A stretch of DNA of 26,041 nucleotides from a virus. The notes under the pieces are model-generated. The model had not been told where the DNA came from and did no database searches. It saw only the letters and a program-made list of their open reading frames with translations. The stretch covers positions 1 to 26,041 of the IMG/VR virus record IMGVR_UViG_3300025687_000280, one strand, 5' to 3'. Of this stretch, positions 4,271 to 18,233 are shown in pieces. A program made the position numbers and the translations under genes. Positions within the stretch are counted from its first letter, which is position 1, and every line of letters begins with the position of its first letter.

Positions 4271-4386
4271 AACAAAATTAGTTTTAATTCACTTTTTTTT
4301 AAAAATAAATATGTCATACATTATCGGCCAGCACGACATCTTTAAGAAATGAACGAAAAAAAGAATAAAAAAAAGGCCTTTGGCTA

Positions 4387-4436
4387 TTTACATTTTAAAT
4401 GTAATACATTAATATATATTCATAGCAAGTCGCTAT
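4387..4436 (+). promoter_or_regulatory. Early promoter P1 with palindromic operator and 5' hairpin
   Basis: The -35 is TTTACA (4387-4392), followed by a spacer of exactly 17 bases and the -10 TAATAT (4410-4415). The operator palindrome ATGTAATACAT (4399-4409) fills the spacer next to the -10. Six bases after the -10 begins the hairpin ATAGCAAGTCGCTAT (4422-4436), which would sit at the very 5' end of the transcript. The same operator and hairpin occur at P2 on the opposite strand. It drives the plus-strand pair 4457-4952. Confidence 0.7.
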
Positions 4437-4456
4437 AAACAAACAAGGACAAAACA

Positions 4457-4666
4457 ATGTATACCGTAATCGTTTCAGAACTAACCACAGAACAATTTCA
4501 AGCCTTAAATCAAGCACTTATCGCTATCAAGTTCGATTTCAATAACGCAAAATCCGACTTTCGCGCTACCAAAGTAACCTTCACCATCAACAAAAAAGAT
4601 ATTCATGCTTTATATGTCGCTATCGGCCAAGCAAATATCACAGCTTATCAAATGCTTACTTTATAA
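4457..4666 (+). CDS. Small hypothetical protein of the plus-strand island
   Basis: This 69-residue protein of unknown function starts MYTVIVSELTTEQFQALNQA. It alternates predicted helix (TTEQFQALNQALIAIK) and strand (ATKVTFTINKK) and ends in a helix (DIHALYVAIGQANITAYQML), suggesting a compact alpha/beta fold with no membrane segment. The start is supported by an AACAAGG leader 8 bases upstream and by promoter P1. It lies on the strand opposite to the surrounding head genes and uses the early-gene promoter and leader type. It therefore looks like an independently expressed accessory (moron) gene. Such small early genes often counter host defences, but nothing in the sequence shows that here. 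Confidence 0.7.
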   Translation: MYTVIVSELTTEQFQALNQALIAIKFDFNNAKSDFRATKVTFTINKKDIHALYVAIGQANITAYQMLTL

Positions 4667-4680
4667 ACATAACGAACTAA

Positions 4681-4700
4681 GGCGGGCCAGCTGGCCCGCC
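4681..4700 (+). repeat. Perfect 20-bp GC palindrome between two small genes
   Basis: GGCGGGCCAGCTGGCCCGCC is its own reverse complement. It lies 14 bases after the first plus-strand gene's stop and 27 bases before the next ATG. It can form a very stable hairpin in RNA from either strand. No T-run follows, so it is more likely an mRNA-stabilising, processing or attenuating hairpin than a simple terminator. Confidence 0.75.
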
Positions 4701-4727
4701 GCTTAAACCCAAAACAAGGACAAGACA

Positions 4728-4952
4728 ATGACCAATTATTCAATCTATCATCAAGGCAAAAAAATCGTAATCGACATTGATGGCTTTCAATATGCAGTAT
4801 ACGCAAGCGATATTTACCACATGTATTCTTTCGACGGTGGACAATGGCGACGAATGAAAGCACCAGCTTTGAATCATAAGTGCTCGATATTTGGAAATAC
4901 GATTATCGGTGACATCTTTCAAACACTACAAACTTACGCACAAAATCAATAA
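4728..4952 (+). CDS. Small hypothetical protein of the plus-strand island
   Basis: This 74-residue protein of unknown function is encoded downstream of 4457-4666 in the same transcript. It starts MTNYSIYHQGKKIVIDIDGF and is rich in aromatic residues (YAVYASDIYHMYSFDGGQWRR), ending with a helix (IIGDIFQTLQTYAQ). The pattern suggests a small beta-rich fold followed by one helix. The start is supported by the AACAAGG leader (ACAAGGACAAGAC before ATG), almost identical to that of its upstream neighbour. A bidirectional terminator follows its stop within 20 bases. No family is recognised. Confidence 0.7.
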   Translation: MTNYSIYHQGKKIVIDIDGFQYAVYASDIYHMYSFDGGQWRRMKAPALNHKCSIFGNTIIGDIFQTLQTYAQNQ

Positions 4953-4970
4953 ACCCCAAACAAAAACAGC

Positions 4971-4998
4971 AAAGGCCGGTCGTGATTGACCGGCCTTT
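4971..4998. terminator. Bidirectional rho-independent terminator
   Basis: Perfect 11-bp stem AAAGGCCGGTC/GACCGGCCTTT with loop GTGATT. On the plus strand it is followed by ATTGTTTT, and on the minus strand by GCTGTTTTTG. It ends the plus-strand island and lies just past the portal stop (5005), so it can also stop or reduce portal transcripts before the protease gene. Confidence 0.8.
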
Positions 4999-5004
4999 AT
5001 TGTT

Positions 5005-8000
5005 TTAGTCGACAATCGGGATCATAGTGCACCGACAATTGATGTCTTCGCTAGCCTCACCGAATGAAGCTGGGCTTGGCGCTTCTGCTCCGCTTTCGCT
5101 GACGAAGTTTTCATTGACGCCGACAGTCTGACCATCTAAGCCGGCGTGACTGTCTCGAACCTTTGAATCACGCGCTGATAGCCATTGTTTCTGAAGCCGA
5201 ACCCCTTGTGCCGTTGCGTCAGTATAAGCTTGTTGTGTGCCGCTGTTAGCTGCTCTGGTGCTTTCGGTCTGTGCGATCATTAGAGACCGCGCAGCTCCGA
5301 AAGCTGTAGCTGCGTCAATGTTCCGACCGATCTGGGCAATCGGCAAACCTTCCATCAAGCCATCTTCGATTATTCTGGTGACGGCGTTCTCTTGCGTTCT
5401 GACAATCTGTCTTGACATTGTATTTATAAGCTCGTTCGCCAGTGTTTCGGATATGGTCACATCATCCACCGGCAAACCAGCGAGACGCATGATTTGTTTA
5501 AGCGTGTCGCCGCCGCTGAGGAAATACCACTTGCGCCACTTTGATCCGATTATTTGCGCAACCAGTTCTTCTTCTGCAGCTGTATCCATCAAGCTGGCAT
5601 AATCGATAATGCCTTTGGTCATGCTTGGCTTCACATATTCCAGCGTTCGGTCTTGGTATCGCTTAGCTGCGCCTTTGAGATAAGCATTTGCAGCTAGCCT
5701 CAAATCCTTCTCTGCTGGTTCGTGAAAGGTACGCAACCACATCTTCCACAGATCCGTTCTTGCTCGTTCTTTGGTTTGCTTGGCTTTGACTTCGTTGATA
5801 ATCTCTTTCATCCGACTTTCACCGAGCGCGCCGACAGTGAACCATTTTATCTGCGCAACGATTCCAGCAATCGAAGATATATTTGGCGCCGGCGGGTCAT
5901 CGCTATTGAATTGTGAACCATCTTTAAAATGACGCGCTGACCACGCCTCGCGCTTTCGGATTGCCATTTCTTCGGTCTCGGTTGTCGGCGCTTTACTGCG
6001 GCGTCGCACGATAGGCAAAAGCCGCCGATATTGATTGTTGCCTTCAATGTTTCCCCCAGCTCGCCATATTTCTGGCCAGTTCTCTTTCAGGTCTTCGGCA
6101 TATTCCCAATCGAAAACCTGATAACCGCTATTGCTAAGATTCACGTTTTCGTCATCGCCATCGGCCGGAAAATTGGTCGGATCAACATCGCCGACAGCGC
6201 GCATTTTTTCCAGCGCCGGAGCTTCTTCTCCGAACTCTAGATAAAGCTTTTCAATGACGCCATAAAGCCGATTGATGTCACGCTGTGAGATCCCGTCAAG
6301 GTTATAATAACCGGTTCCAAATTTGGCTTCTTTTCGAAGCGCTGAACCGGCGGCAATCACGCCACGAAAAACAATCTGCGCTCGGCCGTCAATCATCTTT
6401 GCAATCGGCAAACGATAACCGCGCGGGTCATCTTCTCGGCCACGATAGACGAACAAGAACGCATTCGAATAACGATCGAAATCATCTTCACCGAGCAGCT
6501 GGTCGGCTTCACGCTTTGTAAATCCCCAGTCGGTATCTTTTGGGGCTTTGTCTAGCCCTTCATAGCCGAATAGCAAATGCCGCTTTTCTTCGTCTTCGCC
6601 TCTTGTGCTTAAAGGGTGTTCTTCTGGCAATAAATCGGTGTCATAAGGCTGTCTTCGATATTTTAGATTCCGAAGCGCATAAAGCAAGCCATTTACGCGA
6701 CCCATAGCCCACTGTTCAGCGCTAGAGACAGTCGGTCGAACGCTTGAAGGGTTGCTTTCATAAGCTCCGATTCCACGAAGATATGAGACCGCCAGAATAT
6801 ATTCATCTGTTTGCTTGGCTGGATCATCGCCTACAGCTTCGAGATGTTCTTCAACCTTTTTTTTTAAAACTGTTTGTGTGTTTTCGTTTAAGCTGTTGAA
6901 CGCTTCACGGCGGTTCTCATAGGTGCTGAGATCCTGTCGGGTTTCGATGCTGTAAATCCGAGCTAGATAAGATCGTGCGTCTTCGGCTGTTTCGTCATTA
7001 TAATCTGCGATCGGTTCATCGATGTCTTCAGGGTATTCAAGACCTTCGTATTTGTAAGCTGCGCGCGGTGAAACGCCGTTTAAGATGTGCATTGACACGC
7101 GGTTAAGCTGCTCGGTGCGTGGCTCTTGAAGCGGTTCAACGGCTGAATAATCGTGTTCGAAGACAAGATCATCTTCCCATCTTTGCGCGATGGCACTGAA
7201 CAAGATCGATAGCCGCTTGCCGCGCTTGACTTGAACAGTCCAATAGTTTTTAGCTTGCTGTCGAGAGGTCGCATAATTGGCCGCCGGCAATCCTAGAACC
7301 GAAGGCGGAACACCAGTGACGGCTGAAATGCTTTCGCGCGCCATTCTCCGAGCTTCAACATATTCCATTTCACGAGGTGACAGCTGCAGCGGTTCAACTT
7401 CAGCCAAGCCAGACAGAACCATCGCACCACCGCCGGCGCTCAGCTTGCGGTATTCTTGCGCGATTTCTCGGCGTGTCTCTGGTCCCCAAATATCAGCGGG
7501 ATCTTTCGGCGAGATCAGCAAGTCCGGCCGAGCTTTCGCGCTTGATTCGCTGACTAGGTTCTGACTATTGATGTCGGCGGTTAGCTCTCTTGACAGCGGT
7601 TCGATCGCACCGGTTCCAAGAAGTTCTTCTGGGCCGCTTTTCCAGCTAGCAAGCCGACCATGAACGACGCGCTCCGGTGGATATGCGATCATCTGGCCAC
7701 CGCTGTTGTAAAGATAAGCTTGGATGCCAGTTTGATTCGTTGAGATCCGCACATTTTCGGGATGTAGTCGGACAATCGAAGTCGGCTTGTCGGTTTGACC
7801 AAGAAGAAGAATATAACAGTTCCCCGTCAAGATAAGATCGGTGCACAACTGCTCTCGAAACAGATAGCCGTCAACATTTGACGAGGGTTGATTCATTAAA
7901 TCGATGACTGGGTGATCTTCAACCAGAACGCGGTCTTTTCCTTTGAGCAATCGAAGCGGTAAAGCTGCGAGATCTTGCGAAGCGCGTGAAACAGCTGCAT

Positions 8001-8199
8001 AAGTGTAACCATGACCAGCATAAGCCGACATCGCTTCTTCTGGATTATAGGTCGGTCGCACGCCATACGGCTGGGCATAAGTCGCACCATGATCAAGCTC
8101 GCGCGGTTTGCTCTGCACATCGGCTAGCTGCTTTTGTTCTGGTGCTGAGAACCAATTAACGATTCTGAACCATAATCCGGTCTGTGTTGCTTCTGACAT
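5005..8199 (-). CDS. Portal protein fused to a MuF-type minor head protein
   Basis: This 1064-residue protein is far longer than a normal portal (400-550). Numbering is from an in-frame GTG two codons upstream. Residues 50-400 are an HK97-type portal: AAVSRASQDLAALPLRLLK, then DLILTGNCYILLL, then AVTGVPPSVLG and ANYATSRQQAKNYW. Residues about 485-800 are an extra region with motifs SAEQWAMGRVNGLLYALR, GYRLPIAKMIDG, VFRGVIAAGSALR, WRAGGNIEGN and KREAWSARHF. Residues about 860-1066 are a Mu gpF-like domain: SLMIAQTESTRAANSG, SARDSKVRDSHAGLDG and a terminal INCRCT. The portal forms the packaging vertex; MuF-like domains are head proteins that may be ejected. ATG 8199 is chosen over GTG 8205 because AAAGGGG lies 5 bases before it. 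The RusA stop lies just upstream. Confidence 0.9.
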   Translation of the reverse strand: MSEATQTGLWFRIVNWFSAPEQKQLADVQSKPRELDHGATYAQPYGVRPTYNPEEAMSAYAGHGYTYAAVSRASQDLAALPLRLLKGKDRVLVEDHPVIDLMNQPSSNVDGYLFREQLCTDLILTGNCYILLLGQTDKPTSIVRLHPENVRISTNQTGIQAYLYNSGGQMIAYPPERVVHGRLASWKSGPEELLGTGAIEPLSRELTADINSQNLVSESSAKARPDLLISPKDPADIWGPETRREIAQEYRKLSAGGGAMVLSGLAEVEPLQLSPREMEYVEARRMARESISAVTGVPPSVLGLPAANYATSRQQAKNYWTVQVKRGKRLSILFSAIAQRWEDDLVFEHDYSAVEPLQEPRTEQLNRVSMHILNGVSPRAAYKYEGLEYPEDIDEPIADYNDETAEDARSYLARIYSIETRQDLSTYENRREAFNSLNENTQTVLKKKVEEHLEAVGDDPAKQTDEYILAVSYLRGIGAYESNPSSVRPTVSSAEQWAMGRVNGLLYALRNLKYRRQPYDTDLLPEEHPLSTRGEDEEKRHLLFGYEGLDKAPKDTDWGFTKREADQLLGEDDFDRYSNAFLFVYRGREDDPRGYRLPIAKMIDGRAQIVFRGVIAAGSALRKEAKFGTGYYNLDGISQRDINRLYGVIEKLYLEFGEEAPALEKMRAVGDVDPTNFPADGDDENVNLSNSGYQVFDWEYAEDLKENWPEIWRAGGNIEGNNQYRRLLPIVRRRSKAPTTETEEMAIRKREAWSARHFKDGSQFNSDDPPAPNISSIAGIVAQIKWFTVGALGESRMKEIINEVKAKQTKERARTDLWKMWLRTFHEPAEKDLRLAANAYLKGAAKRYQDRTLEYVKPSMTKGIIDYASLMDTAAEEELVAQIIGSKWRKWYFLSGGDTLKQIMRLAGLPVDDVTISETLANELINTMSRQIVRTQENAVTRIIEDGLMEGLPIAQIGRNIDAATAFGAARSLMIAQTESTRAANSGTQQAYTDATAQGVRLQKQWLSARDSKVRDSHAGLDGQTVGVNENFVSESGAEAPSPASFGEASEDINCRCTMIPIVD

Positions 8200-8225
8200 A
8201 TTCACCCCTTTAAAGGGTATATATC
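8197..8225 (-). promoter_or_regulatory. Shared late leader in front of portal
   Basis: On the minus strand: an extended -10-like TGATATATA, then ACCCTTTAAAGGGG, then TGAATATG with the portal start. The central CCCTTTAAAGGG is a perfect 12-bp palindrome that contains the ribosome site. It matches the protease leader except for one inserted base and two substitutions. A promoter that starts transcription just before the portal gene, uncoupled from resolvase and methyltransferase, is a reasonable inference. Confidence 0.45.
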
Positions 8226-8642
8226 AATTTTAATGTAATTTCGTTCAGATTTTTTATTTTCGCGGATCTTGCCATACCATTTCGTTGCGATGAGACCGAC
8301 AACCTGAGCATCATCTTTTAAAACCTTCGCATCTTGCAAGGCATCGAGAACGGATTTCGTGATGTTATCCAGATCTGGCTTCGTGCCTTTAAAGATTCGA
8401 TCGGTCGGGTCTGATTTGCGCATCAAGCTTTGAGGTCGCTGATAAATAAAGGTGATGTCAACAAATACGACATCTTCAATGTTTAAAGCTGCGATTTGAT
8501 TTCGGATCTGGGTCACCGCTCCGCTTTTCCACTGAACATAATTCATCGGCATATAAGCTCGGCCGCCAGCAACGCGCGGTCGTGGGCATGACATCGGTTT
8601 TGTTTCAATATTAAGTGTTATCCGTTCGCCTGTTAAATTCAT
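8202..8642 (-). CDS. rusA: RusA-like Holliday junction resolvase
   Basis: This 146-residue endonuclease resolves four-way DNA junctions from replication and recombination before packaging. The diagnostic segment is KPDLDNITKSVLDALQ followed by LKDDAQV. D90, D92 and D111 reproduce the spacing of the three catalytic aspartates of E. coli RusA (70, 72, 91). A basic SCPRPRV stretch near residue 18 and a C-terminal KKSERNYIKIDI strand complete the fold. The length fits the family (about 120-150). The ATG overlaps the methyltransferase stop as ATGA, with AGGTGA upstream, so the two DNA-processing genes are translationally coupled. Confidence 0.9.
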   Translation of the reverse strand: MNLTGERITLNIETKPMSCPRPRVAGGRAYMPMNYVQWKSGAVTQIRNQIAALNIEDVVFVDITFIYQRPQSLMRKSDPTDRIFKGTKPDLDNITKSVLDALQDAKVLKDDAQVVGLIATKWYGKIRENKKSERNYIKIDIYPLKG

Positions 8643-9856: not shown

Positions 9857-9871
9857 TTGATTTTCCTTGTT

Positions 9872-9903
9872 AAAAAAGAATAGCCCACCGAAGCGGGCTA
9901 TTC
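9872..9903 (-). terminator. Rho-independent terminator after the small early gene
   Basis: On the minus strand: 11-bp stem GAATAGCCCGC/GTGGGCTATTC with one G-T pair, a TTCG tetraloop, then TTTTTT. It ends the monocistronic transcript from promoter P2. Because the next gene starts right behind it, methyltransferase expression needs readthrough or another upstream signal. Confidence 0.85.
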
Positions 9904-9920
9904 AAAGATTATTTTGTTCT

Positions 9921-10187
9921 TTATTGCCAAAGTGGTTGTTCTTCTTCTTTCTTCGATAGGCAGATTGTTATATCAGTATAAGCTGGATAGTAAGGGTTCC
10001 ACTTGTATGTACATTCAAAGTTCCACATTTCGATAAGTTCGAGAGCTTCTTCTAAATCTTTGGTTAGAACTCGCATACCATTGCGATTTACCCCTCCATG
10101 ACCTAGTGAGTAATGGCTTGGATAAATGTCATTGTAAATGATTAGAAGGCATTCTTGGATGAACTGGATTTTTTCTTGCTTTGTCAT
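9921..10187 (-). CDS. Small hypothetical early protein
   Basis: This 88-residue protein of unknown function starts MTKQEKIQFIQECLLIIYND. The open frame extends 45 codons further upstream, but promoter P2 and its leader lie inside that extension. The ATG at 10187, preceded by AACAAGAGAGAACAAA, is therefore the credible start. Features are an N-terminal amphipathic helix, a central HYSLGHGGVNRNGMRVLTKD segment with a helix EEALELIEMW, and aromatic motifs (YKWNPYYPAYTD). The C terminus is acidic (KKEEEQPLW). It forms a one-gene unit between large terminase and methyltransferase, with its own promoter and terminator, in the style of an accessory gene. Confidence 0.7.
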   Translation of the reverse strand: MTKQEKIQFIQECLLIIYNDIYPSHYSLGHGGVNRNGMRVLTKDLEEALELIEMWNFECTYKWNPYYPAYTDITICLSKKEEEQPLWQ

Positions 10188-10208
10188 TTTGTTCTCTCTT
10201 GTTTGTTT

Positions 10209-10258
10209 ATAGCGACTTGCTATGTATACATTATAATGTATTACATTTAAAAAGCAAA
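10209..10258 (-). promoter_or_regulatory. Early promoter P2 with palindromic operator and 5' hairpin
   Basis: On the minus strand: -35 TTTGCT (10258-10253), 17-base spacer, -10 TATAAT (10235-10230). The operator ATGTATTACAT (10236-10246) abuts the -10. Six bases beyond the -10 starts the hairpin ATAGCAAGTCGCTAT (10223-10209), identical to the one at P1. It drives the 88-residue gene ending at 9921. Confidence 0.75.
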
Positions 10259-10288
10259 TAAAAAGAATAAAAAAAGTAATCTTTTTAA

Positions 10289-11758
10289 TTATCTTCCTTG
10301 TATCCGGCTTAAAGTCATACAAATATATCTCAGTGCATCAAGCCCGTGATCGTTCTGTTTGACTGGTTGATCTTGTTTTTGATCTGCTTTCCAGCGATAA
10401 GCTCGCATTTCTTTGATCAGCTGGCGACAGCAGCTATGGATATACATCGCCGGATAACCTTCGACATCGATGGTTAGATATTTCTTGACATGCTGAATTC
10501 CTTCAATGACGCCGAGGTGTTTAGGCGCAGGCTTGGTTGGAATGTCGCAATATCTCGCCAGCGTCAAGCGGCCGTCTTTGCTTTCGGGGTCGGCACTTGT
10601 CCACGCCACGCGCGGATCTTTCTTTGAGAGTGCATAGACCATGTTTCCGTTCTCTTGCGTGGTGACTTCGGTCTTGTAATACTCACGATAGACATGAAGA
10701 ACATCATTCTTCAAGTCGTGAGCCACCCAAATACACGCAAATGGATTTCGTGTTCCGAAGTCGATTCCACGATAACGCGGCCAATCTTCTGGAAGCTCGC
10801 GCGGTTCGATGACATGCACATCACGCCTGAACTCGGAATAAACAAGACCGGTCTGAAGGGTGAACGCACCGAATAAGCGGCTTTGCTGGCTGGCTTCTGA
10901 TAGGTGTTTCGTAGCTTGGCGCAGCTTGACCGATGAAACGAACGGATTATCAAGCCCGCTGATCTGAACATAATCAAAGCCATCGATCTGATTTTCGATG
11001 AAGGTATCATGAACCCATGTCATTCCCTTCAAAGGCGTCATCGTCAACAGAAGCCGCCCACCATAAGGCGTATCGGCACAGCGCAACATAAGCTCCTCAA
11101 ATATGTCTTTTGGGTGTTCTTCGTCAAGCCAAGCCAGCGAAATCGCACGAAGACCACGACCTCCCATTCCTTGATATTTCTCTCGCCCGCTGTCAGCCGA
11201 CATCGCAATGATCCGACCGCCGTTCGGCAAAGTCGCGACCGCTCGGCCAGCGCCTTTCCAGTTTCGAAAGCTCGTGCCGACAGGCAAGTATTTGACGATC
11301 TTTGGCCGGATATATTCAGCGCTGTCGGCGTAGCTAAGACCCGATGAAATTACCGTTGAAGGCTGCGGTGGTAGCAAGTCCAGCGGAATCCCGTTCAGCT
11401 TGGCCCACTGTTCGACCCACCACTCAGATCGCCCAGCTGCAAATGCGACAGCTAGCTGCGCTCCGATTTCCGTTTTGCCCGCCCGATTTCCACCGGCGAC
11501 CAGATAAGCGAGCTTCGGAAAAGACAGCGGAATCTCGATCTGTGAAGACCGGCTTTCGGTGATGTTGCACGCCTCACAGCGCCAGATTCCAGCGTTAAGG
11601 CGCTTCATCGGTTGACCGCAGCCGCGCGGGCGCTCTGATTGCGATCCTTTGCCGTCGAATCGATGGCAATAAGGCCGCCATAACCGAGACAGCGCAAGCG
11701 GAAATTGCTTCTGAATCCGGCCTAGCGTATTGACAGCGGCGACCAGATCATTCTTCAT
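10289..11758 (-). CDS. terL: Terminase large subunit
   Basis: This 489-residue packaging motor and nuclease starts with an N-terminal zinc-ribbon-like set (C31, C47, C61, C64). The ATPase domain has Walker A GGNRAGKT (89-96) and Walker B ISLAWLDEE (206-214), then a coupling motif LLLTMTP (237-243). The nuclease domain has acidic residues D333 in RGIDFGTRNPF, D390 in TSADPES, and D470/D474 in NDHGLDALRY. All key residues are present and the length is typical. It acts with the small terminase at the portal vertex to pump and cut DNA. The start overlaps the stop of the HTH gene by 11 bases. No strong ribosome site is visible, so coupling to that gene is likely. Confidence 0.95.
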   Translation of the reverse strand: MKNDLVAAVNTLGRIQKQFPLALSRLWRPYCHRFDGKGSQSERPRGCGQPMKRLNAGIWRCEACNITESRSSQIEIPLSFPKLAYLVAGGNRAGKTEIGAQLAVAFAAGRSEWWVEQWAKLNGIPLDLLPPQPSTVISSGLSYADSAEYIRPKIVKYLPVGTSFRNWKGAGRAVATLPNGGRIIAMSADSGREKYQGMGGRGLRAISLAWLDEEHPKDIFEELMLRCADTPYGGRLLLTMTPLKGMTWVHDTFIENQIDGFDYVQISGLDNPFVSSVKLRQATKHLSEASQQSRLFGAFTLQTGLVYSEFRRDVHVIEPRELPEDWPRYRGIDFGTRNPFACIWVAHDLKNDVLHVYREYYKTEVTTQENGNMVYALSKKDPRVAWTSADPESKDGRLTLARYCDIPTKPAPKHLGVIEGIQHVKKYLTIDVEGYPAMYIHSCCRQLIKEMRAYRWKADQKQDQPVKQNDHGLDALRYICMTLSRIQGR

Positions 11759-12080
11759 CTTTTTGCGCTTCGATGACTCGGCGTTCGTAATTTGCGATAG
11801 CTTGAAGCTCGAAATAGATTCGATCGCGCTGGGTGCAATGAACCCGACTGAAACGATTCAAACAAAACGCACCAGCGACCGCGAAAAGCTCCGCGTCACT
11901 TGGAATAGACCGACCATCAAGCCATTCAGCCACCGAAGCGCGTGAAACACCGGCGGCGATTGCCAGCGCTCGTTCTGTGAGCGTGAATCCTGATTTCAGC
12001 ATCAACCGTTCCAGAGCGACATTGAAAGTTTTCGGCCGGCTGCGCTCGTGCCAACTCCACAGCTTTTCTTCTCGTTTCAT
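11748..12080 (-). CDS. XRE-like helix-turn-helix protein between the terminase genes
   Basis: This 110-residue DNA-binding protein has a helix-turn-helix at about residues 33-60: LTERALAIAAGVSRASVAEW followed by LDGRSIPSDAELFAVAGAF. This is the layout of Cro/C1-type domains. The C-terminal helix (RIYFELQAIANYERRVIEAQ) could dimerise. The ATG overlaps the small terminase stop as ATGA, and the stop lies inside the large terminase gene. It may be a regulator, or an accessory factor or second subunit for recognising packaging sites; its place inside the packaging operon favours the latter slightly. No effector domain is visible. Confidence 0.65.
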   Translation of the reverse strand: MKREEKLWSWHERSRPKTFNVALERLMLKSGFTLTERALAIAAGVSRASVAEWLDGRSIPSDAELFAVAGAFCLNRFSRVHCTQRDRIYFELQAIANYERRVIEAQKDEE

Positions 12081-12532
12081 TCTTCATCCAGATCGATAAC
12101 TGGGCCGGTGATGACCTCTTGCAATGCGTGTTCTCTGACCTGTTCGATCAGCGTGGTGACCTCTGCGTTCTGGATGTCGACGGTTAATTCGATTGTCGGC
12201 CGATCGCCTTCTTTGATGTATCCATGACGCCGTTCAAGCATCCAAGCTGCAGCTGTCCAATTTCCATCTTTGGCCGACTGTGCGATGCTTGCAAGATTCC
12301 GAACTGCATTCATCGCTTCGGCGTGTTTCACCTCTGAATAAAAGGCTTCGTATAGCTCGCCTTGACCATCACGCCCACGAGCAAGCCACTGAAAAAGGCT
12401 TCGCTGCGAAATACCGGCATAACTGGCGGCAATGTCATAAGTGCAACCTAATAGAACAGCCTCGCAAACTTTACGCTGCACTTCTTCGGTCAGCGCTGTC
12501 GGTCTTCCTTGTTTTCGTTTGATCTTTGGCAT
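12077..12532 (-). CDS. terS: Terminase small subunit
   Basis: This 151-residue protein recognises phage DNA and delivers it to the large terminase. A basic N terminus (PKIKRKQGRP) precedes a helix-turn-helix (about residues 23-47: GCTYDIAASYAGISQRSLFQ). Next come KHAEAMNAVRNLASIAQ and the motif NWTAAAWMLERRHGY, which is characteristic of one small-terminase family. The acidic C terminus probably contacts the large subunit. ATG 12532 is chosen over an in-frame TTG at 12544 because it avoids overlap with the methyltransferase stop; neither has a good ribosome site. The neighbours, methyltransferase upstream and terminase downstream, support the assignment. Confidence 0.8.
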   Translation of the reverse strand: MPKIKRKQGRPTALTEEVQRKVCEAVLLGCTYDIAASYAGISQRSLFQWLARGRDGQGELYEAFYSEVKHAEAMNAVRNLASIAQSAKDGNWTAAAWMLERRHGYIKEGDRPTIELTVDIQNAEVTTLIEQVREHALQEVITGPVIDLDEE

Positions 12533-12537
12533 ATCGA

Positions 12538-13758: not shown

Positions 13759-13766
13759 AGCTTTTC

Positions 13767-13946
13767 CTATTCGGTGATCGTTCTGAGAGCGTGAATAATC
13801 ACCGAAGAACGCGTGACGCTATTTTGATCGGCTAGGCGTTCGACTTTATCCAGCAAGCCGCTCGGAATGCGCACGCAGATAACCTGAGAATTGCCGCGAT
13901 CTTCTTGGCCGCGACCTTGTTTGACTGGTTCGATGTTACTAGGCAT
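13767..13946 (-). CDS. Ribbon-helix-helix DNA-binding protein
   Basis: This is a short gene of 59 codons. The protein starts MPSNIEPVKQGRGQEDRGNS, and the ribbon is QVICVRIP, followed by helices SGLLDKVERLADQN and VTRSSVIIHALRTI. That is the ribbon-helix-helix pattern of CopG/Arc-like repressors: the strand inserts in the major groove, and the SVTRSSVI turn starts helix B. The N terminus is a flexible charged tail. The ribosome site is GAGGAAATAATC before ATG. It sits between the candidate helicase loader and the ParB-methyltransferase. RHH dimers bind short palindromes, so it is one candidate for the factor that reads the ATGTAWTACAT operators; this is inference. Confidence 0.85.
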   Translation of the reverse strand: MPSNIEPVKQGRGQEDRGNSQVICVRIPSGLLDKVERLADQNSVTRSSVIIHALRTITE

Positions 13947-13975
13947 GATTATTTCCTCGAATAGTGTATAACATT

Positions 13976-14689
13976 TTATTTGAGATAATGAAGATTTTTT
14001 TCACCGACGATAGCTCGGCGAAATTGCTTTCTTTGAGCTTCAACACCAGCTTCTTTCATCTTCTGGCGGCGCTCGGCCATGACCTCGCCGATTTCATCGA
14101 ACGACATTCCGGCGAACGGTGACGGATCGACGCCAGCGGGGTATTCATCGCGGCCGCTGTGCTGGTTGAAGCTCGTTACATACCATTCTAGGATTTCAAT
14201 CGAGTGCGGATCTGAATCTCGATAACCCAGACAACGATAGCCCTTAGATGAACGCAAACGGTCTAAAAACTGGTTGTAGTTATCTGCTTTGGTATTCAGA
14301 GCGCCTCTCGAACAAGTACAGCGTGCAACCCATTCCTGACGCTTTATCTGGTCTTCATCGATGCGCATGATAACAAACAATCGACGCGTACCATTTTCGC
14401 AGAGGTGACAGCTGGAAGCTGAGAGCGCTTGACGAACCTGTGCAGCTCCGAGCTTCTTGATCATGTACGCTTTGAGATCGCCGAAAGGTGGTAACCGCTT
14501 GTCAGCGGTGTCGGTGATGTACTGCATAGCTGCGCGGTGAACCAGATCATTATCATAGTTCTGGAAGCTGGCGAATAGCAAGCCGGCGAAGCTGTCAAAG
14601 AAGGCTTGATGCCACTGGGGATCTTTGCCCCAGTTCATTCCAAAGTGAAGCGCGATTTGTTCTGATGTTTGATAGGTGAGTGTATTCAT
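13976..14689 (-). CDS. Zinc-finger replication protein, candidate helicase loader
   Basis: This 237-residue protein is encoded directly after the initiator (TAATG overlap). The N-terminal half is helical (QIALHFGMNW, FFDSFAGLLFASFQ, LVHRAAMQYI, FGDLKAYMIKKLG), as in phage helicase loaders of the P/DnaC-replacement type. A four-cysteine site follows: C94 and C97 in SCHLCENG, and C124 and C126 in RCTCSRG, a likely zinc ribbon. The C-terminal third is charged and helical (MAERRQKMKEAGVEAQRKQF). No Walker motifs are seen, so it is not an ATPase of the DnaC type. The role as loader or primosome component is inferred from the position after an O-like initiator and from the general pattern. Confidence 0.55.
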   Translation of the reverse strand: MNTLTYQTSEQIALHFGMNWGKDPQWHQAFFDSFAGLLFASFQNYDNDLVHRAAMQYITDTADKRLPPFGDLKAYMIKKLGAAQVRQALSASSCHLCENGTRRLFVIMRIDEDQIKRQEWVARCTCSRGALNTKADNYNQFLDRLRSSKGYRCLGYRDSDPHSIEILEWYVTSFNQHSGRDEYPAGVDPSPFAGMSFDEIGEVMAERRQKMKEAGVEAQRKQFRRAIVGEKNLHYLK

Positions 14690-15132
14690 TAGTCAATTCT
14701 CGGTACAAGGAAAAAAGGATTAGGTTTTTTTTGTTCTTCTTCTTTTTCTTTTTCTTTTTGTTTTTCTTTCTTATTGGTATTTAGATTTGATAGGGGGGGG
14801 GTATTTAGATTTGATATACCCCCCCTATTTAGATTTGATATACCCTCTATCAAATTTGAACCCCCCTCTTCAGCCTTTGGCAGCTTGAATCTGGCGGTGT
14901 TGTTTTTCGGGTCAAAGCCATCACGAACCAGCATTCCCTTATCAACCAAGCTTCGGATAGCTCGCTTAACTGAAGGCACAGAACACCCAGCCAATTGAGC
15001 TACGGTTGCAGCTGCTGGATAAGCAACGCCATTTGACCCCATAAACATTTTCAGGATGAAATAAACAGCCCACTCAACATTTTTCGGTAGGCTGTCGATT
15101 TCGTTCTTGTTGATCTTAGTCCAGCGATACAC
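14689..15132 (-). CDS. Winged-helix replication initiator (O-like) with embedded iterons
   Basis: This protein of 147 residues from GTG 15132 has an N-terminal winged helix: KNVEWAVYFILKMF, YPAAATVAQLAGCSVPSVKR and AIRSLVDKGMLV. These match the HTH found in lambda O-like and plasmid initiators. A low-complexity middle holds three SNLN repeats spaced 8 residues apart, which are the translation of 24-bp DNA iterons. A Lys/Glu-rich stretch and a short NPFFLVPRID tail follow. The protein should bind the iterons and recruit the loader encoded next. GTG 15132 is preferred because AAAGGG lies 8 bases upstream; an ATG at 15171 in the same frame has no ribosome site and would overlap the previous gene by 56 bases. 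Confidence 0.75.
   Translation of the reverse strand: MYRWTKINKNEIDSLPKNVEWAVYFILKMFMGSNGVAYPAAATVAQLAGCSVPSVKRAIRSLVDKGMLVRDGFDPKNNTARFKLPKAEEGGSNLIEGISNLNRGGISNLNTPPLSNLNTNKKEKQKEKEKEEEQKKPNPFFLVPRID
14723..14770 (+). other. T-rich/A-rich strand-asymmetric tract, candidate DNA unwinding element
   Basis: A 48-base run is almost purely pyrimidine on the plus strand (T with scattered C, only a few G). It starts after TTAGG and ends at the iterons. It encodes the Lys/Glu-rich part of the initiator. Its position directly beside the iteron array mirrors the AT-rich unwinding region beside the iterons of lambda ori. Confidence 0.55.
14778..14860. repeat. Iteron array, candidate replication origin inside the initiator gene
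   Basis: Three identical copies of TATTTAGATTTGATA start at 14778, 14802 and 14826, an exact 24-bp period. A degenerate inverted copy (TATCAAATTTGAA, 14848-14860) forms an ATTTGATA/TATCAAAT inverted repeat with the third. The copies are separated by a G9 tract (14793-14801) and a C7 tract (14819-14825) that could pair with each other around the second iteron. The array lies within the initiator coding sequence, as in lambda-like phages, next to an AT-rich tract. Confidence 0.8.
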
Positions 15133-15463
15133 TTTCAAAGCCCTTTGTGCCGAGATAATGATGACAGGCATAGAACTGGCTGAAGGTCATCAGGGTTTGC
15201 AGCTGGGCTTGATAATCGCGTTCAGCTTGTCGCATCAGAACCTCATCGATCTCGCTTCGACTTTGATAGTAGTTAAGCTGGCGCTGGCGAACCTTCTCAA
15301 GACCTTCTTCAGCAACATCAGCCCAAAGCCAATAATACTTCTTAAGATCGTCAACGGTTTGAACGCCGATCGCGTAAGGGTGGGTGAGTGCTAGAACTAG
15401 CTCGAGGTTCTCTTTTGAAGCTGAGCTGAGTGTGTGCATTACATCTTCGAATAAGTGAAACAT
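15116..15463 (-). CDS. Hypothetical helical protein upstream of the initiator
   Basis: This 115-residue protein of unknown function starts MFHLFEDVMHTLSSASKENL. It appears mostly helical: ASKENLELVLALTHPYAIG, TVDDLKKYYWLWADVAEEGL, and a long charged helix with RQRQLNYYQSRSEIDEVLMR and QAERDYQAQLQTLMTFSQFY. The long helix could be a coiled coil. The ribosome site AACAAGGATATAAA belongs to the early-gene leader family. A CCAGCTCC-TTCG-GGAGCTGG hairpin lies just upstream. Its 3' end overlaps the initiator start region, so both are co-translated from promoter P3. No family is recognised. Confidence 0.65.
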   Translation of the reverse strand: MFHLFEDVMHTLSSASKENLELVLALTHPYAIGVQTVDDLKKYYWLWADVAEEGLEKVRQRQLNYYQSRSEIDEVLMRQAERDYQAQLQTLMTFSQFYACHHYLGTKGFESVSLD

Positions 15464-15490
15464 TTTATATCCTTGTTTGTTTGGGTGATG

Positions 15491-15510
15491 CCAGCTCCCG
15501 AAGGAGCTGG
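15491..15510 (-). promoter_or_regulatory. Intercistronic TTCG hairpin
   Basis: On the minus strand, CCAGCTCC-TTCG-GGAGCTGG is a perfect 8-bp stem with the stable TTCG tetraloop. It lies between the stop of the 104-residue gene and the leader of the 115-residue gene. No T-run follows, so mRNA stabilisation, processing or partial attenuation is more likely than full termination. Confidence 0.65.
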
Positions 15511-15523
15511 ACTTGGTTGTTTG

Positions 15524-15838
15524 TTATTTGTCTGAAAGATCGTAAGCGATTAGCTCGGCGCATTTCTTCTGAACATATTTTGGAAGATCGGAAAAGTCAG
15601 CATCAAAGACATCTCCATCGCCATATTCAAAGCCATCTTCGCCTTCTTCGCGGAATTTTACAATCGACATATATGGAAAACCTTCATCGGGATTTGATTC
15701 AAGATATTCAGCTGCTATCTCAACATTTTCTTTGAAGGTTTTAAGAGCTTGTTCAGCTTCATTCAGATCGAAGCTCTCGCAAGATAGGTCTGGGCAATTT
15801 GAACCGACCCAAAGGATTATTTCATAAGTAGTTTTCAT
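15524..15838 (-). CDS. Small acidic hypothetical protein
   Basis: This 104-residue protein is the first gene behind promoter P3. It is strongly acidic: 25 Asp/Glu against 9 Lys/Arg by my count. Acidic clusters are FREEGEDGFEYGDGDVFDAD and the C-terminal region. It starts MKTTYEIILWVGSNCPDLSC and contains a helix LNEAEQALKTFKENVEIAAE. There is no membrane segment. Being small, acidic and early, it could be a DNA mimic or host-protein inhibitor, but no motif shows this. The ribosome site is ACAGGAAAC, a variant of the family leader. Confidence 0.65.
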   Translation of the reverse strand: MKTTYEIILWVGSNCPDLSCESFDLNEAEQALKTFKENVEIAAEYLESNPDEGFPYMSIVKFREEGEDGFEYGDGDVFDADFSDLPKYVQKKCAELIAYDLSDK

Positions 15839-15859
15839 TGGTTTGTTTCCTGTTTGTAT

Positions 15860-15913
15860 AAAGCGTTATTGCTTTATGTAATACATAATAACTAATATGT
15901 ATTACATTGTAAA
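15860..15913 (-). promoter_or_regulatory. Early promoter P3 with two operators and 5' hairpin
   Basis: On the minus strand: -35 TTTACA (15913-15908), 17-base spacer, -10 TATTAT (15890-15885). It has two operator palindromes: ATGTATTACAT (15897-15907) next to the -35, and ATGTAATACAT (15876-15886) over the -10. Their centres are 21 bp apart, two helical turns. The transcript would begin with the hairpin AAAGC-AATAAC-GCTTT (15875-15860). It heads the long replication and packaging operon. Confidence 0.75.
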
Positions 15914-15922
15914 GCAAAAAGA

Positions 15923-16255
15923 TTATTTATTTTCATATTTTAAAACAGATTGGGCCAGTGCGATCAAATGTTTGCATGGCAGCTGGCCGCGTGTTCTGTC
16001 TGGACAAGTGCAGAATGTGTTAGTAGCTGTGAAAACCGATCGCCGGCCTTCTTCGCTGGTTGATTGTACATTCCACTCGTTATGAATCCGATTGTAATTG
16101 AAATTCTTTGAAGCGAACTTGACATAAGCTGCGCGCAGAAGTCGGGTTTGCAGATCCGGCGCTTTGCTGGTGTCAGGCACCTCTTGTTTAGCTGTTTCGA
16201 TGATTTTTTCGGCGTGCTGTGCCAGCTGTGGATAAGCTTCGTTAAAGGGTTGCAT
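15923..16255 (-). CDS. SWIM-type zinc-finger protein
   Basis: This 110-residue protein has a SWIM finger, CxCx(n)CxH: C82 and C84 in FCTCPDRTRG, then C94 and H96 in LPCKHLIAL. A VFTATNT strand precedes it and a helix follows. SWIM domains bind DNA or proteins and occur in recombination-related and transposase-like proteins. The N-terminal half is helical (YPQLAQHAEKIIETAKQE, PDLQTRLLRAAYVKFASKNF). The ATG overlaps the stop of the 44-residue gene as TAATG. As a stand-alone early gene near a candidate annealing protein and RusA, a role in recombination is plausible but unproven. Confidence 0.75.
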   Translation of the reverse strand: MQPFNEAYPQLAQHAEKIIETAKQEVPDTSKAPDLQTRLLRAAYVKFASKNFNYNRIHNEWNVQSTSEEGRRSVFTATNTFCTCPDRTRGQLPCKHLIALAQSVLKYENK

Positions 16256-16389
16256 TATTGTAAATCCTCCGGATTGATTTCGACTTCGCCATATCCAACC
16301 GGATCAGGGATTTCGATTTCGCTGAAAAGTTCTTCGAGCAGCTGCTGAAGCTCTTCTTGTTCTTGGTTCTTCTGGGTTTCGTTATTCAT
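16255..16389 (-). CDS. Very small acidic hypothetical protein
   Basis: This 44-residue protein starts MNNETQKNQEQEELQQLLEE and ends with a Pro/Gly segment and a Glu/Asp-rich tail. It has a glutamine and glutamate-rich helix with leucines. The open frame extends further 5', but ATG 16389 follows the standard leader AACAAGGCAAAAC, and the upstream part contains the intercistronic hairpin. The stop overlaps the SWIM gene's ATG, so it may serve partly to couple translation. Function unknown. Confidence 0.65.
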   Translation of the reverse strand: MNNETQKNQEQEELQQLLEELFSEIEIPDPVGYGEVEINPEDLQ

Positions 16390-16409
16390 TGTTTTGCCTT
16401 GTTTGATGT

Positions 16410-16431
16410 GGGCCGATCCGAAGACCGGCCC
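16410..16431 (-). promoter_or_regulatory. Intercistronic TTCG hairpin, copy 1 of an exact pair
   Basis: Minus strand: 9-bp stem GGGCCGGTC/GATCGGCCC (one G-T pair) around a TTCG loop. It lies between the 113-residue gene and the leader of the 44-residue gene. The same hairpin with identical flanks recurs at 17976-17997. No T-run follows. Confidence 0.75.
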
Positions 16432-16439
16432 TTGATGGT

Positions 16440-16781
16440 TTATGCTGAAAATATAAAAGTGTATTTTTCGCGGGTGTCGCAATCATAAAAGCTGATTTGA
16501 CCAGCTGCTAATAATCGTTGATAGCCTAATTTCATGCGCATGAAACAAGCATTTACATCAAGGCCATAATCTTTGAAATCATTTACGCTGTCAATCATGA
16601 CCAGGTAATTATTATCTCGACATCCGGTTAATCGTAAATATAGAGTTTGCAAAAATTGAAAGACATATCCATTCGTTTCTGATGTCGATATAATTTCAAG
16701 CTCAGCTTCTGTATTGTTTATTTCGCAACCTTTGGTCTGTAGTACAGACAAAGATTCAATGAGATCATTATCAAGTTTCAT
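16440..16781 (-). CDS. Hypothetical early protein
   Basis: This 113-residue protein of unknown function is first behind promoter P4. It starts MKLDNDLIESLSVLQTKGCE and appears alpha/beta (TEAELEIISTSETNGYVFQF, LYLRLTGCRDNNYLVMIDSV). It ends in a strand-rich QISFYDCDTREKYTFIF. ATG 16781 is chosen because AAGGAG lies 7 bases upstream. An ATG two codons earlier is too close to the ribosome site, and more distal in-frame starts lie within the promoter. Five cysteines are present without a metal-binding pattern. Confidence 0.7.
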   Translation of the reverse strand: MKLDNDLIESLSVLQTKGCEINNTEAELEIISTSETNGYVFQFLQTLYLRLTGCRDNNYLVMIDSVNDFKDYGLDVNACFMRMKLGYQRLLAAGQISFYDCDTREKYTFIFSA

Positions 16782-16798
16782 GTTCATTCTCCTTGTTT

Positions 16799-16843
16799 GA
16801 TGTTGAACATTTATAATGTAATACATTTAAAACGCACTGTAAA
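16799..16843 (-). promoter_or_regulatory. Early promoter P4 with palindromic operator
   Basis: Minus strand: -35 TTTACA (16843-16838), 11 bases, then operator ATGTATTACAT (16826-16816) followed by TATAAA. With TACATT (16820-16815) as the -10 the spacer is 17. The same arrangement occurs at P5, and the upstream AAATAATGCTTTACA is shared with P5. A small inverted repeat ATGTTCAACAT lies at the expected transcript start. Confidence 0.65.
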
Positions 16844-16874
16844 GCATTATTTGAATTATTTTGAAATAAAAACC

Positions 16875-16903
16875 AAAAAACCCGCCAATACAAGATCAGC
16901 GGG
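16875..16903 (-). terminator. Rho-independent terminator ending the 18169-17053 operon
   Basis: Minus strand: AGCCCGC/GCGGGTT stem (5 strong pairs plus G-T and A-T) with a 13-base loop, followed by TTTTTT (16880-16875). It lies about 150 bases after the stop of the gene ending at 17053 and before promoter P4. Confidence 0.7.
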
Positions 16904-17017
16904 CTGGAAATAAACAAATTTCTTTGAGCAATAAAGTTTTAATTTGTCCGAGCTTGATGCGCAAGATAGTTTTAATTTTGTAAATCGAAAATCGATTTAT
17001 GGAATTGTGAACGGGAT
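16904..17017. other. Non-coding gap with an inverted repeat
   Basis: Together with its flanking terminators this gap is about 225 bases without a gene. It holds the 19-base inverted repeat TAAATCGAAAATCGATTTA (16981-16999) and two AGTTTTAATTT.G stretches (about 16936 and 16968). No convincing open frame or promoter is seen on either strand. It lies between a minus-strand terminator and a plus-strand terminator, which leaves room for a short plus-strand RNA. Confidence 0.4.
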
Positions 17018-17050
17018 GAAGCTGGGGCCTTGGGCCCCAACTTCTTTTTT
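17018..17050 (+). terminator. Plus-strand terminator-like hairpin with T-run
   Basis: Plus strand: 12-position stem GAAGCTGGGGCC/GGCCCCAACTTC with one C-A mismatch and a TTG loop, then TTTTTT. On the minus strand the same hairpin has a G-T pair instead of the mismatch but no T-run. It sits directly behind the stop of a minus-strand gene, although no plus-strand gene ends here. Confidence 0.6.
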
Positions 17051-17052
17051 AG

Positions 17053-17397
17053 CTAGTCGCCCAGTTCTTCGAACGCCGTCAATCCAAGCCCAGTGAAATC
17101 TCGAAGCGCGCGCGCCTTTGCTCGTGTTTCTGCCATTCGGATAGCGTGCGGCAAGATCATCTTTGAGACATTGAATTTCGTGGCGTCACCATAGCCGGTG
17201 AAGCTCTGGCCTTCTTTGCCTGTGACCACAGCTTTGAAGATGAATCGGCCGTTCTCGAAATCCATCAGAACCGGTTCTGTTTCGATTCCAGTCAAGCCGC
17301 GTTCATGCGCTAAGACGATAAGCCCAGTGTATAAAATAAAATCTTTGCCTTGAAGCGTGACGATAAATCGGCGTCTTTTAAGCTCTTGAAGATCCAT
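17053..17397 (-). CDS. Candidate single-strand annealing / recombination protein
   Basis: This 114-residue protein starts with FIVTLQGKDFILYTGLIVLA and HERGLTGIETE. It then has a strand (RFIFKAVVTG) and SFTGYGDATKFNVSKMI, and ends in the well-conserved pattern IRMAETRAKARALRDFTGLG with AFEELGD. I recognise the block (RMAETRAKARALR...G...LEELG) as typical of short phage proteins related to Rad52/ERF-like annealing factors, but I cannot name the family with certainty. The basic ARALR helix would bind DNA. It is the last gene of the P5 operon and follows the 80-residue gene by two bases. Its leader is AACAAGGAGAATAAC. Confidence 0.55.
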   Translation of the reverse strand: MDLQELKRRRFIVTLQGKDFILYTGLIVLAHERGLTGIETEPVLMDFENGRFIFKAVVTGKEGQSFTGYGDATKFNVSKMILPHAIRMAETRAKARALRDFTGLGLTAFEELGD

Positions 17398-17399
17398 TG

Positions 17400-17642
17400 T
17401 TATTCTCCTTGTTCATTAGAATTAAAACCAAATGTCTTCGTTGCTTTGGTTGATTCAATAGATAATGTCATCGTGTCATATTTTGAAGAACCATCGACTG
17501 GCTGAAGAATAACCTTCAGAATCGCAAATCCTTTATCGAGAAGATATATTTCTGAATGTGTTGCCTTTGTTCGTTCTAAGAATGCCATTCTTCTTTCGAT
17601 AAATTCGGGTTTAACTGGTTTTTGATGTTTGATTTTTTTCAT
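17400..17642 (-). CDS. Small basic hypothetical protein
   Basis: This 80-residue protein of unknown function starts MKKIKHQKPVKPEFIERRMA. The basic, proline-containing N terminus is followed by EIYLLDKGFAILKVILQPVD and a polar C terminus with strands (DTMTLSIESTKATKTFGF). It is probably a small beta-rich cytoplasmic protein. The leader is AACAAGGAGAATAACC. The start lies two bases after the stop of the small membrane protein gene, and the stop is two bases before the next ATG, so all three are translationally coupled. Confidence 0.65.
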   Translation of the reverse strand: MKKIKHQKPVKPEFIERRMAFLERTKATHSEIYLLDKGFAILKVILQPVDGSSKYDTMTLSIESTKATKTFGFNSNEQGE

Positions 17643-17644
17643 GG

Positions 17645-17773
17645 TTATTCTCCTTGTTTGCTAAGTTTGATTGATAGAATGATGAAGCCAGCGGCGGCGG
17701 TCATGCTCGTGATATAGAAGATTTGAGCTATCGGAGCTACAGCTTCGTGAATGGCGATAAATATTTCTGTCAT
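17645..17773 (-). CDS. 42-residue membrane protein
   Basis: This very short gene encodes MTEIFIAIHEAVAPIAQIFY followed by ITSMTAAAGFIILSIKLSKQ and GE. Most of residues 4-37 are hydrophobic, with a likely membrane span at the ITSMTAAAGFIILSI segment and a basic end (KLSK), which predicts a cytoplasmic C terminus. The start is supported by a strong leader, AACAAGGAGACATC, and coupling to the next gene. Tiny early membrane proteins in phages can act on the envelope or exclude other phages. No function is shown here. Confidence 0.7.
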   Translation of the reverse strand: MTEIFIAIHEAVAPIAQIFYITSMTAAAGFIILSIKLSKQGE

Positions 17774-17786
17774 GATGTCTCCTTGT

Positions 17787-17954
17787 TTATTTGATCAATT
17801 GATCGGGTGAAATATTGCGGCGATAGAATTCGCTGAAGAATGCAGCTAAGATGGAATCTTCGAGCTTGTGGTATTGAACCATCGATTGAAACACATTCAA
17901 TAGATTTTCATCATTTAAGCGGGCTAATTGTTCGATAAGAGCTTGGTTATTCAT
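17787..17954 (-). CDS. Small helical hypothetical protein
   Basis: This 55-residue protein starts MNNQALIEQLARLNDENLLN. It is predicted all-helical, with a second helix VFQSMVQYHKLEDSILAAFF and a short basic turn (YRRN) before SPDQLIK. The leader AACAAGGACAAGAC is 20 bases downstream of the second copy of the paired TTCG hairpin. No family is recognised. It is the second gene of the P5 operon. Confidence 0.65.
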   Translation of the reverse strand: MNNQALIEQLARLNDENLLNVFQSMVQYHKLEDSILAAFFSEFYRRNISPDQLIK

Positions 17955-17975
17955 TGTCTTGTCCTTGTTTGAAGT

Positions 17976-17997
17976 GGGCCGATCCGAAGACCGGCCC
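17976..17997 (-). promoter_or_regulatory. Intercistronic TTCG hairpin, copy 2 of an exact pair
   Basis: Same sequence as 16410-16431, with identical bases also on both sides (about 29 identical bases in total). It lies between the first and second genes of the P5 operon, the same relative place as copy 1 in the P4 operon. Confidence 0.75.
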
Positions 17998-18001
17998 TTG
18001 A

Positions 18002-18169
18002 TTATTTCAGTTCTGATAATTCTTTTTTAATCTTAGCTAGCTTCTCTACTGCTTCTAGCAGAAGGAATTTTGTATTCCATCTTGCAGTTCCATTCTCAAT
18101 CTTAGCTTCGTATTCTGCGATTAAGGTGAGACAGGTTTTTTCATCGGCTTTGAGGATCATCTCTTTCAT
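18002..18169 (-). CDS. Small hypothetical protein, coiled-coil-like
   Basis: This 55-residue protein starts MKEMILKADEKTCLTLIAEY, continues with a charged segment, and ends in a Lys/Glu/Leu-rich helix (LLEAVEKLAKIKKELSELK) that could form a coiled coil. ATG 18169 is chosen because AAGGAG lies 7 bases upstream. The frame stays open 5' into promoter P5, which cannot be coding for this protein. It is first in the P5 operon. Confidence 0.65.
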   Translation of the reverse strand: MKEMILKADEKTCLTLIAEYEAKIENGTARWNTKFLLLEAVEKLAKIKKELSELK

Positions 18170-18189
18170 GTTCGTTCTCCTTGTTTGTT

Positions 18190-18233
18190 GTTGAACATGT
18201 TTATAATGTAATACATTATTCAATCAATGTAAA
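18190..18233 (-). promoter_or_regulatory. Early promoter P5 with palindromic operator
   Basis: Minus strand: -35 TTTACA (18233-18228), 11 bases, operator ATGTATTACAT (18216-18206) and TATAAA. The arrangement is the same as at P4, including the shared upstream AAATAATGCTTTACA and the TGTTCAACA repeat near the transcript start. It drives the five-gene operon ending at 17053. Confidence 0.65.

Follow-up and report, generated by a model that had tools for sequence, protein, structure and literature searches.

Results

Six copies of one palindrome at five predicted promoters

We analyse here a viral contig of 26,041 bases from a tailed phage (IMG/VR record IMGVR_UViG_3300025687_000280), taken at its full length and called the window. 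It encodes an HK97-type capsid, an S78 protease, a fused portal/Mu-F protein and a tape-measure-like protein, as well as RusA, two methyltransferases, terminases and an O-like replication protein. Our subject is an 11-base palindrome, ATGTAWTACAT (W is A or T), which we call the operator, together with its candidate repressor, a ribbon-helix-helix (RHH) protein of 59 amino acids encoded at 13767-13946 (-). The original prediction, made from the letters of the DNA, listed six copies of the operator at five promoters, P1 to P5, and all six are present exactly where it placed them.

The first copy, O1 (ATGTAATACAT, 4399-4409, +), belongs to P1, with the -35 box TTTACA at 4387-4392 and the -10 box TAATAT at 4410-4415. 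The other copies are on the minus strand. O2 (10236-10246) belongs to P2, with TATAAT at 10235-10230 and TTTGCT at 10258-10253. P3 has two copies: O3a (15897-15907) is in the spacer directly after the -35 box TTTACA (15913-15908), and O3b (15876-15886) follows 21 bp downstream of O3a, close to the -10 box at 15890-15885. O4 (16816-16826) belongs to P4, with TTTACA at 16843-16838 and TACATT at 16820-16815, while O5 (18206-18216) belongs to P5, with TTTACA at 18233-18228 and TACATT at 18210-18205.

The predicted geometry is found in most of its details. At P4 and P5 the operator lies 11 bases after TTTACA, and the spacing of 21 bases at P3 agrees with two copies placed two helical turns apart. 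For P1 and P2 an operator set against the -10 box in a 17-base spacer had been described; this is true of P1 (TTTACA-17-TAATAT), but P2, although it has a TATAAT box, has a poor -35 box that matches at 3 of 6 positions. It had also been claimed that every copy lies inside a -35/-10 pair. Five of the six copies of the inverted repeat do occupy the spacer of a predicted pair or overlap its -10 box. The sixth, O3b, touches the -10 box only at its final two bases and runs downstream from there, over the predicted transcription start of P3. Promoter-like pairs as such are not more frequent than expected by chance between 4000 and 19000 (27 found against 23.0 expected), so the promoter argument rests on their coincidence with the operators and on the relatives described below.

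The number of copies is far from random. In 100 dinucleotide shuffles of the window the mean was 0.01 copies and the largest number 1, compared with 6 observed. Since the motif was chosen after inspection, we also counted the commonest palindrome with 5-base arms in each of 30 random windows, leaving out arms of a single letter; it never exceeded 4 copies. Further, all six sites are outside the gene calls, as had been claimed, and with a non-coding share of 5.97% the chance of this is about 4.5e-8. Only one extra site appears when one mismatch is allowed, ATGTCATACAT at 4311-4321 (no strand assigned). It is non-coding and is also present in the near-copy L007, but is not found at that place in G002, G004, G005 or G010.

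A scan with a position matrix had been proposed as a check. We built the matrix from 13 sites in relatives, three of which have one mismatch, and excluded the window and its near-copies; several of these sites come from promoters that match those of the window, so the matrix is not independent by descent. It places exactly the six operators at ranks 1-6, with scores of 20.0-25.3, followed by the site at 4311 (16.1), a coding match (14.3) and, in ninth place (11.4), a site upstream of the RHH gene. Matrix matches are thus not scattered equally in coding DNA, where the first one has rank eight.

Conservation in relatives

The 11-mer is found in 13 of the 45 records searched. Eleven of these belong to the same clade as the window, and seven of the eleven are diverged (G002, G004, G005, G010, G014, G015 and G017). 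The remaining four resemble the window closely, G001, G011 and G013 being near-identical to it and G012 almost so. The other two, G044 and G045, entered the search for their motif matches and have no match to window proteins. Records of the close clade that lack the 11-mer (G003, G006, G007, G008 and G009) span, by their gene maps, none of the P1-P5 promoters. The palindrome is absent from the more distant clade records searched, and from G027 and G032.

In the relatives the sites sit at promoters that match those of the window. The P1 slot carries the operator in G002, G004, G005 and G010, and in G002 and G005 it does so in the spacer of a perfect TTGACA-17-TATAAT promoter, with 12 of 12 matches to the sigma-70 boxes. 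The same full score is reached by a unit of G017, where a one-mismatch operator, ATGTATGACAT, is in the spacer. The 21-bp operator pair of P3 is kept in G014 (both copies exact) and in G017 (one exact, one with a single mismatch). Where the promoter pair is fair, 0-1, 6-7 or 11-12 bases separate the -35 box from the operator, which places it within the -35/-10 span, as would be expected if it were a blocking site.

Two other explanations of the recurrence were rejected. A mobile repeat was discarded, since recurrence is limited to the 11-mer and its promoter frame, with differing flanks and cargo. That the motif is general to many phages was rejected on scans with longer patterns. An extended 17-mer was found in 49 stretches of viral contigs, four of them with matches to window proteins, and the operator followed by its leader gave 24 viral stretches, 10 from this clade and 14 without a match to window proteins.

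Many transcripts from P1-P5, in the window, in its relatives and in G016, would begin with a short hairpin whose stem is changed on both sides between phages (ATAGC/GCTAT, GTAAC/GTTAC, ATACC/GGTAT, ATAAAGC/GCTTTAT and TGTTC/GAACA). At P4 and P5 there is an alternative, a stem formed by the 5' end and the region of the start codon, around the ribosome site. A leader like AAACAAACAAGG follows the hairpin or stem. The combined shuffle p-values are 4e-4 for the short hairpins and 0.02 for the long stems, both too small because the modules are related, and as a real feature the hairpins are suggestive only.

G027 carries a promoter-like 54-mer twice (L124:1-54 and L124:2553-2606, 91% identical), with another motif in the same layout and then a hairpin and a CAATCAATCAA leader. 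A repeat array of type GGATCAAATGATCC, perhaps origin iterons, is found at the end of a replication gene in G027 (L124:3865-3973) and also in G032.

A symmetric change of the operator in a sister phage

G016 is a sister phage of 27,662 bases whose terminase and capsid are 76% and 73% identical to those of the window. It has the same layout, but with an altered operator in four promoter regions: TTGTAWTACAA occurs exactly four times and ATGTAWTACAT not at all, compared with none and six in the window. At most one copy of the altered form was seen in 200 random G016 sequences. Further, there is a hybrid site, TTGTAATACAT, before the unit of the anti-restriction protein ArdC, and a weak site at 4934. 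The five sites with the core are all outside open reading frames (ORFs) of at least 60 amino acids that start with ATG, and each site precedes a leader and then a start codon. Searching for the G016 form of the operator with a leader gave 26 stretches. G016 had three matches, in two of them, and no other record had more than one.

G016 shares the core TGTAWTACA with the window and differs in the outer pair, which is replaced in both half-sites. A reader that binds as a dimer requires such symmetry. The change also bears on the reading that the palindrome is a part of the promoter itself, for instance an element that a phage sigma factor or an activator recognises, and not a repressor site. This would account for the place of the palindrome in promoter regions, where it frequently touches the -10 box; a change that is symmetric in both half-sites argues against it, as do the varying distance to the -35 box, the full sigma-70 boxes that some operator promoters already have and the second P3 copy, downstream from the -10 box. 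We regard this reading as very unlikely.

The units and their exchangeable cargo

Five units carry the operator: P3 belongs to replication, P5 to recombination and P4 to a unit with a SWIM protein, while P1 and P2 head small cassettes. The P3 unit (13767-15838, -) contains g15524, g15116, the O-like replication initiation protein, g13976 and the RHH gene, and no terminator-like site was predicted inside it on its own strand. The P4 unit (15923-16781, -) consists of ORFs of 113 and 45 amino acids and a SWIM zinc-finger protein. P5 (17053-18169, -) comprises four small ORFs and, at 17053-17397, a probable recombination (single-strand annealing) protein; no Pfam family was found for the latter, but it has two phage matches at 47-50% identity, and its phage relative H27 is annotated as 'DNA repair and recombination protein'. 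Two 45-mers that are 93% identical and contain a hairpin-forming GGGCCGGTCTTCGGATCGGCCC lie between genes, one in the P4 unit at 16397-16441 and one in the P5 unit at 17963-18007. Inside the replication initiation gene, at 14776-14840, three 17-mers with a spacing of 24 bases are candidate iterons.

The P1 cassette (4457-4952, +) has two small ORFs of 69 and 74 amino acids, neither with a Pfam family above the cut-off, and ends in a bidirectional terminator-like hairpin (4971-4998). The P2 cassette (9921-10187, -) is an orphan ORF of 88 amino acids that is also followed by a terminator-like hairpin (9903-9878). In both slots the operator is kept between relatives while the cargo is swapped. 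Among the five P1 slots compared, a single gene pair shows similarity at E 1e-3, the second ORFs of G002 and G005 (81%). In G010 and G012 the P2 slot holds ArdC, as judged from PF08401 and PF18818 on the G012 protein, to which that of G010 is 70% identical. G018 also spans P2; there the terminase abuts RusA, and cassette and operator are both absent. The gene in the P2 slot of G014 (L129:2400-2969), after the terminase, has CxxC-like motifs and by eye is possibly an HNH endonuclease, with a AAACAAGGAG leader. No match named anti-CRISPR was found among the scanned ORFs in Pfam or PHROGs, which are general libraries.

Elsewhere in the contig, a possible late promoter with TTTTGTTATATATATACCC lies at 4250-4277 (-), upstream of the protease and capsid genes, and TTGTTATATATA from this region is kept in L008, L010, L011, L130 and the near-copy L007. 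By comparison with L009, about 1.65 kb appear to be absent between the two ends of the window: the corresponding gap in L009 is 1.86 kb, of which 0.2 kb is present in the window. For the capsid, neither a tblastn search of 50,697 phage records nor the scan of genome contigs found a relative, and the large terminase has distant phage matches only (1374 records, all below 60% identity, the best-ranked at 27.9%). The protein scan, which covered part of the ORFs, identified no integrase and recognised no lysogeny genes, which makes a maintenance repressor less likely.

Which protein reads the operator

Two phage proteins had been proposed as regulators, the RHH protein (13767-13946) and a helix-turn-helix (HTH) protein (11748-12080); the evidence favours the former, though without proving it. 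The RHH protein matches a PHROG of transcriptional repressors (E 1.8e-5), and its model has helices at residues 29-42 and 46-58 in an RHH arrangement. The best fold matches in the PDB, by Foldseek, are Arc (1baz, prob 0.97, E 0.17), the antitoxin 8u12, CopG and TacA2. Arc of P22 is itself a small RHH protein with auto-repression and several sites; the likeness to our candidate is one of fold.

The operator is present in all five other records with a relative of the RHH protein (G011, G012, G014, G016 and G017), whereas G027 and G032 span the region and have neither the RHH gene nor the core palindrome. The presumed DNA-reading strand, NSQVICVRI, is identical in the four aligned RHH proteins that go with the ATGTA-type operator, those of the window and G012 (mutual near-copies), G014 and G017. 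In G016 it reads STKIVCVRM: N19, S20, Q21, V22, I23 and I27 are changed, but C24 and R26, which we take to correspond to Arc positions 11 and 13, are not. In this one comparison the changes fit a kept core and an exchanged outer pair. Upstream of the RHH gene itself, at 13964-13974 (-), there is a degenerate operator-like site. A site at this place is seen in five genomes. It has two mismatches in the window and in G012 and one in both G014 and G017, and in G016 it is an inverted repeat of variant sequence, accompanied by TATAAT.

The HTH protein could instead be the cognate regulator. It is Cro/CI-like, resembles HTH_3 at a score just below the Pfam cut-off, has a confident five-helix model (pLDDT 85) and is found in the nine operator-bearing records that cover the place (the window and G010-G017). 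Its recognition helix (model residues 47-55), however, differs widely among phages with an identical operator (RASVAEWLD, RASVHEWLD, RWEVRDWLD, RWQVKEWID and RWQVEQWID), which speaks against it as the reader. Further, its gene lies between the terminase genes and overlaps or abuts that of the small terminase in the late block, with no exact or one-mismatch operator upstream and a two-mismatch match in G017. We consider the HTH protein an unlikely reader.

A host transcription factor might also read the palindrome and tie the early genes to host physiology, in which case the change in G016 would reflect a different host. The operator-plus-leader pattern was indeed found in 22 stretches of bacterial and archaeal genomes, but these come from unrelated taxa in 257 billion bases and look like chance, and the presence of the operator tracks that of the RHH gene, a gene of the phage. 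This explanation seems improbable to us.

Discussion

The palindrome set is real, functional-looking and conserved, and it looks like a dispersed-operator phage regulon: one site is found at several promoters and is conserved in relatives. That a shared operator serves units on both strands, as the original prediction proposed, is well supported by the held-out matrix, the matching promoters of the relatives and the symmetric change in G016. As to its function, we think it probable, from sequence comparison, that ATGTAWTACAT is the operator of a dimeric repressor encoded by the phage, most likely the 59-residue RHH protein, that blocks early promoters.

According to this proposal, strong promoters of the sigma-70 type would fire early after infection and give transcripts of the replication genes, the recombination genes and the two exchangeable cassettes. 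The RHH protein would be made from the P3 unit with its double operator and accumulate; its dimers would then occupy the DNA between or on the -35 and -10 boxes and exclude RNA polymerase, so that all five units, its own included, are shut off. A varying phase of the operators, within the spacer or across the -10 box, fits a steric block of RNA polymerase, and we take repression to be more probable than activation. The label 'early' is suggested by gene content (replication, recombination and, in relatives, ArdC), and the feedback shut-off of the early genes is our proposal.

Several observations weigh against this proposal. No Foldseek match of the RHH protein reaches E 0.001, its Pfam scores (RHH_5) are below the curated cut-offs, and its model is of middling confidence (pLDDT 74) with no strand assigned in the monomer. 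The link to the operator comes from few independent genomes, three diverged RHH proteins with ATGTA and one with TTGTA, and the HTH protein is likewise found together with the operator. In the window, the operator-like site before the RHH gene is degenerate, with two mismatches. The promoters are not always convincing: the best pair has at most 7 of 12 matches at P3 of G014, P2 of G015 and P3 of G017, and 8 of 12 at P1 of G010. In the P2 slot of G014 a gene is present while the operator is absent. Finally, typical RHH operators hold two dimers, and a lone 11-bp palindrome would hold one, except at P3. A review describes cooperative binding to multiple sites (PMC5569661).

Phage regulons with multiple operators are of an already known kind. 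In literature searches no phage operator of this sequence was among the matches listed for the operator letters, one of which was a primer list for a bacterial promoter. A search for RHH proteins at phage early promoters gave none, and one for conserved inverted repeats of the phiC31 type gave an unrelated match only.

The promoters regulated by Aca proteins, for which steric block of RNA polymerase has been proposed, resemble ours in several ways: the repressor is a small phage protein, an inverted repeat lies within the core promoter (-35/-10), at times with another one close by (compare P3), and early accessory genes are auto-repressed (PMC9410906). The Aca families described are however of the HTH type (PMC9410906), and here one operator serves five separate units, including replication, with no anti-CRISPR gene recognised. 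As the favoured candidate is an RHH and not an HTH-type protein, we do not file the system as Aca. In SIRV2 one conserved promoter sequence also precedes many small, mutually dissimilar early genes; this shared sequence is thought to be shut off by Aca8 and has been used to find anti-defence genes (PMC11065993). SIRV2 differs in being an archaeal virus with TATA/BRE promoters and a predicted winged-HTH repressor (PMC11065993).

In Cluster A mycobacteriophages there are many copies of a site whose consensus shifts together with the repressor between related phages (PMC6550527). Their operators and stoperators are asymmetric (PMC9283540), while the window sites are palindromic and all six are in promoter regions; they lack the stoperator trait of asymmetric sites that lie mostly outside promoters. 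The prophage SPbeta has one element, SPBRE, in about ten promoter regions under one master repressor, MrpR, but MrpR has a recombinase-like fold and holds lysogeny (PMC10516654), and here no integrase is among the scanned proteins. SvtR and AvtR are small viral RHH proteins with auto-repression and several sites per genome (PMC5569661); their consensus sites are unlike our palindrome, and no sequence homology is shown.

What was a raw repeat becomes a testable pair of repressor and operator. Further, the operator flags uncharacterised early genes in a phage whose capsid had no match in the phage records searched. Between the two sister phages, each half-site has changed at one base pair and the presumed DNA-reading strand of the candidate repressor at several residues, and such a natural specificity variant is a small model for the evolution of repressor specificity. 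A more far-reaching idea, which we hold only tentatively, is that the early regulon of this uncultured phage lineage spans the genome under the control of an Arc-like RHH protein, that the operator specificity of this protein is re-set between sisters by a symmetric change of the outer pair together with a few strand residues, and that the cassettes are barcoded by the operator. If this is true, cassettes of operator, promoter and leader would carry accessory genes, and the operator would be a barcode for early anti-defence genes, with ArdC as the anti-defence cargo found so far and the orphans of P1 and P2 as candidates.
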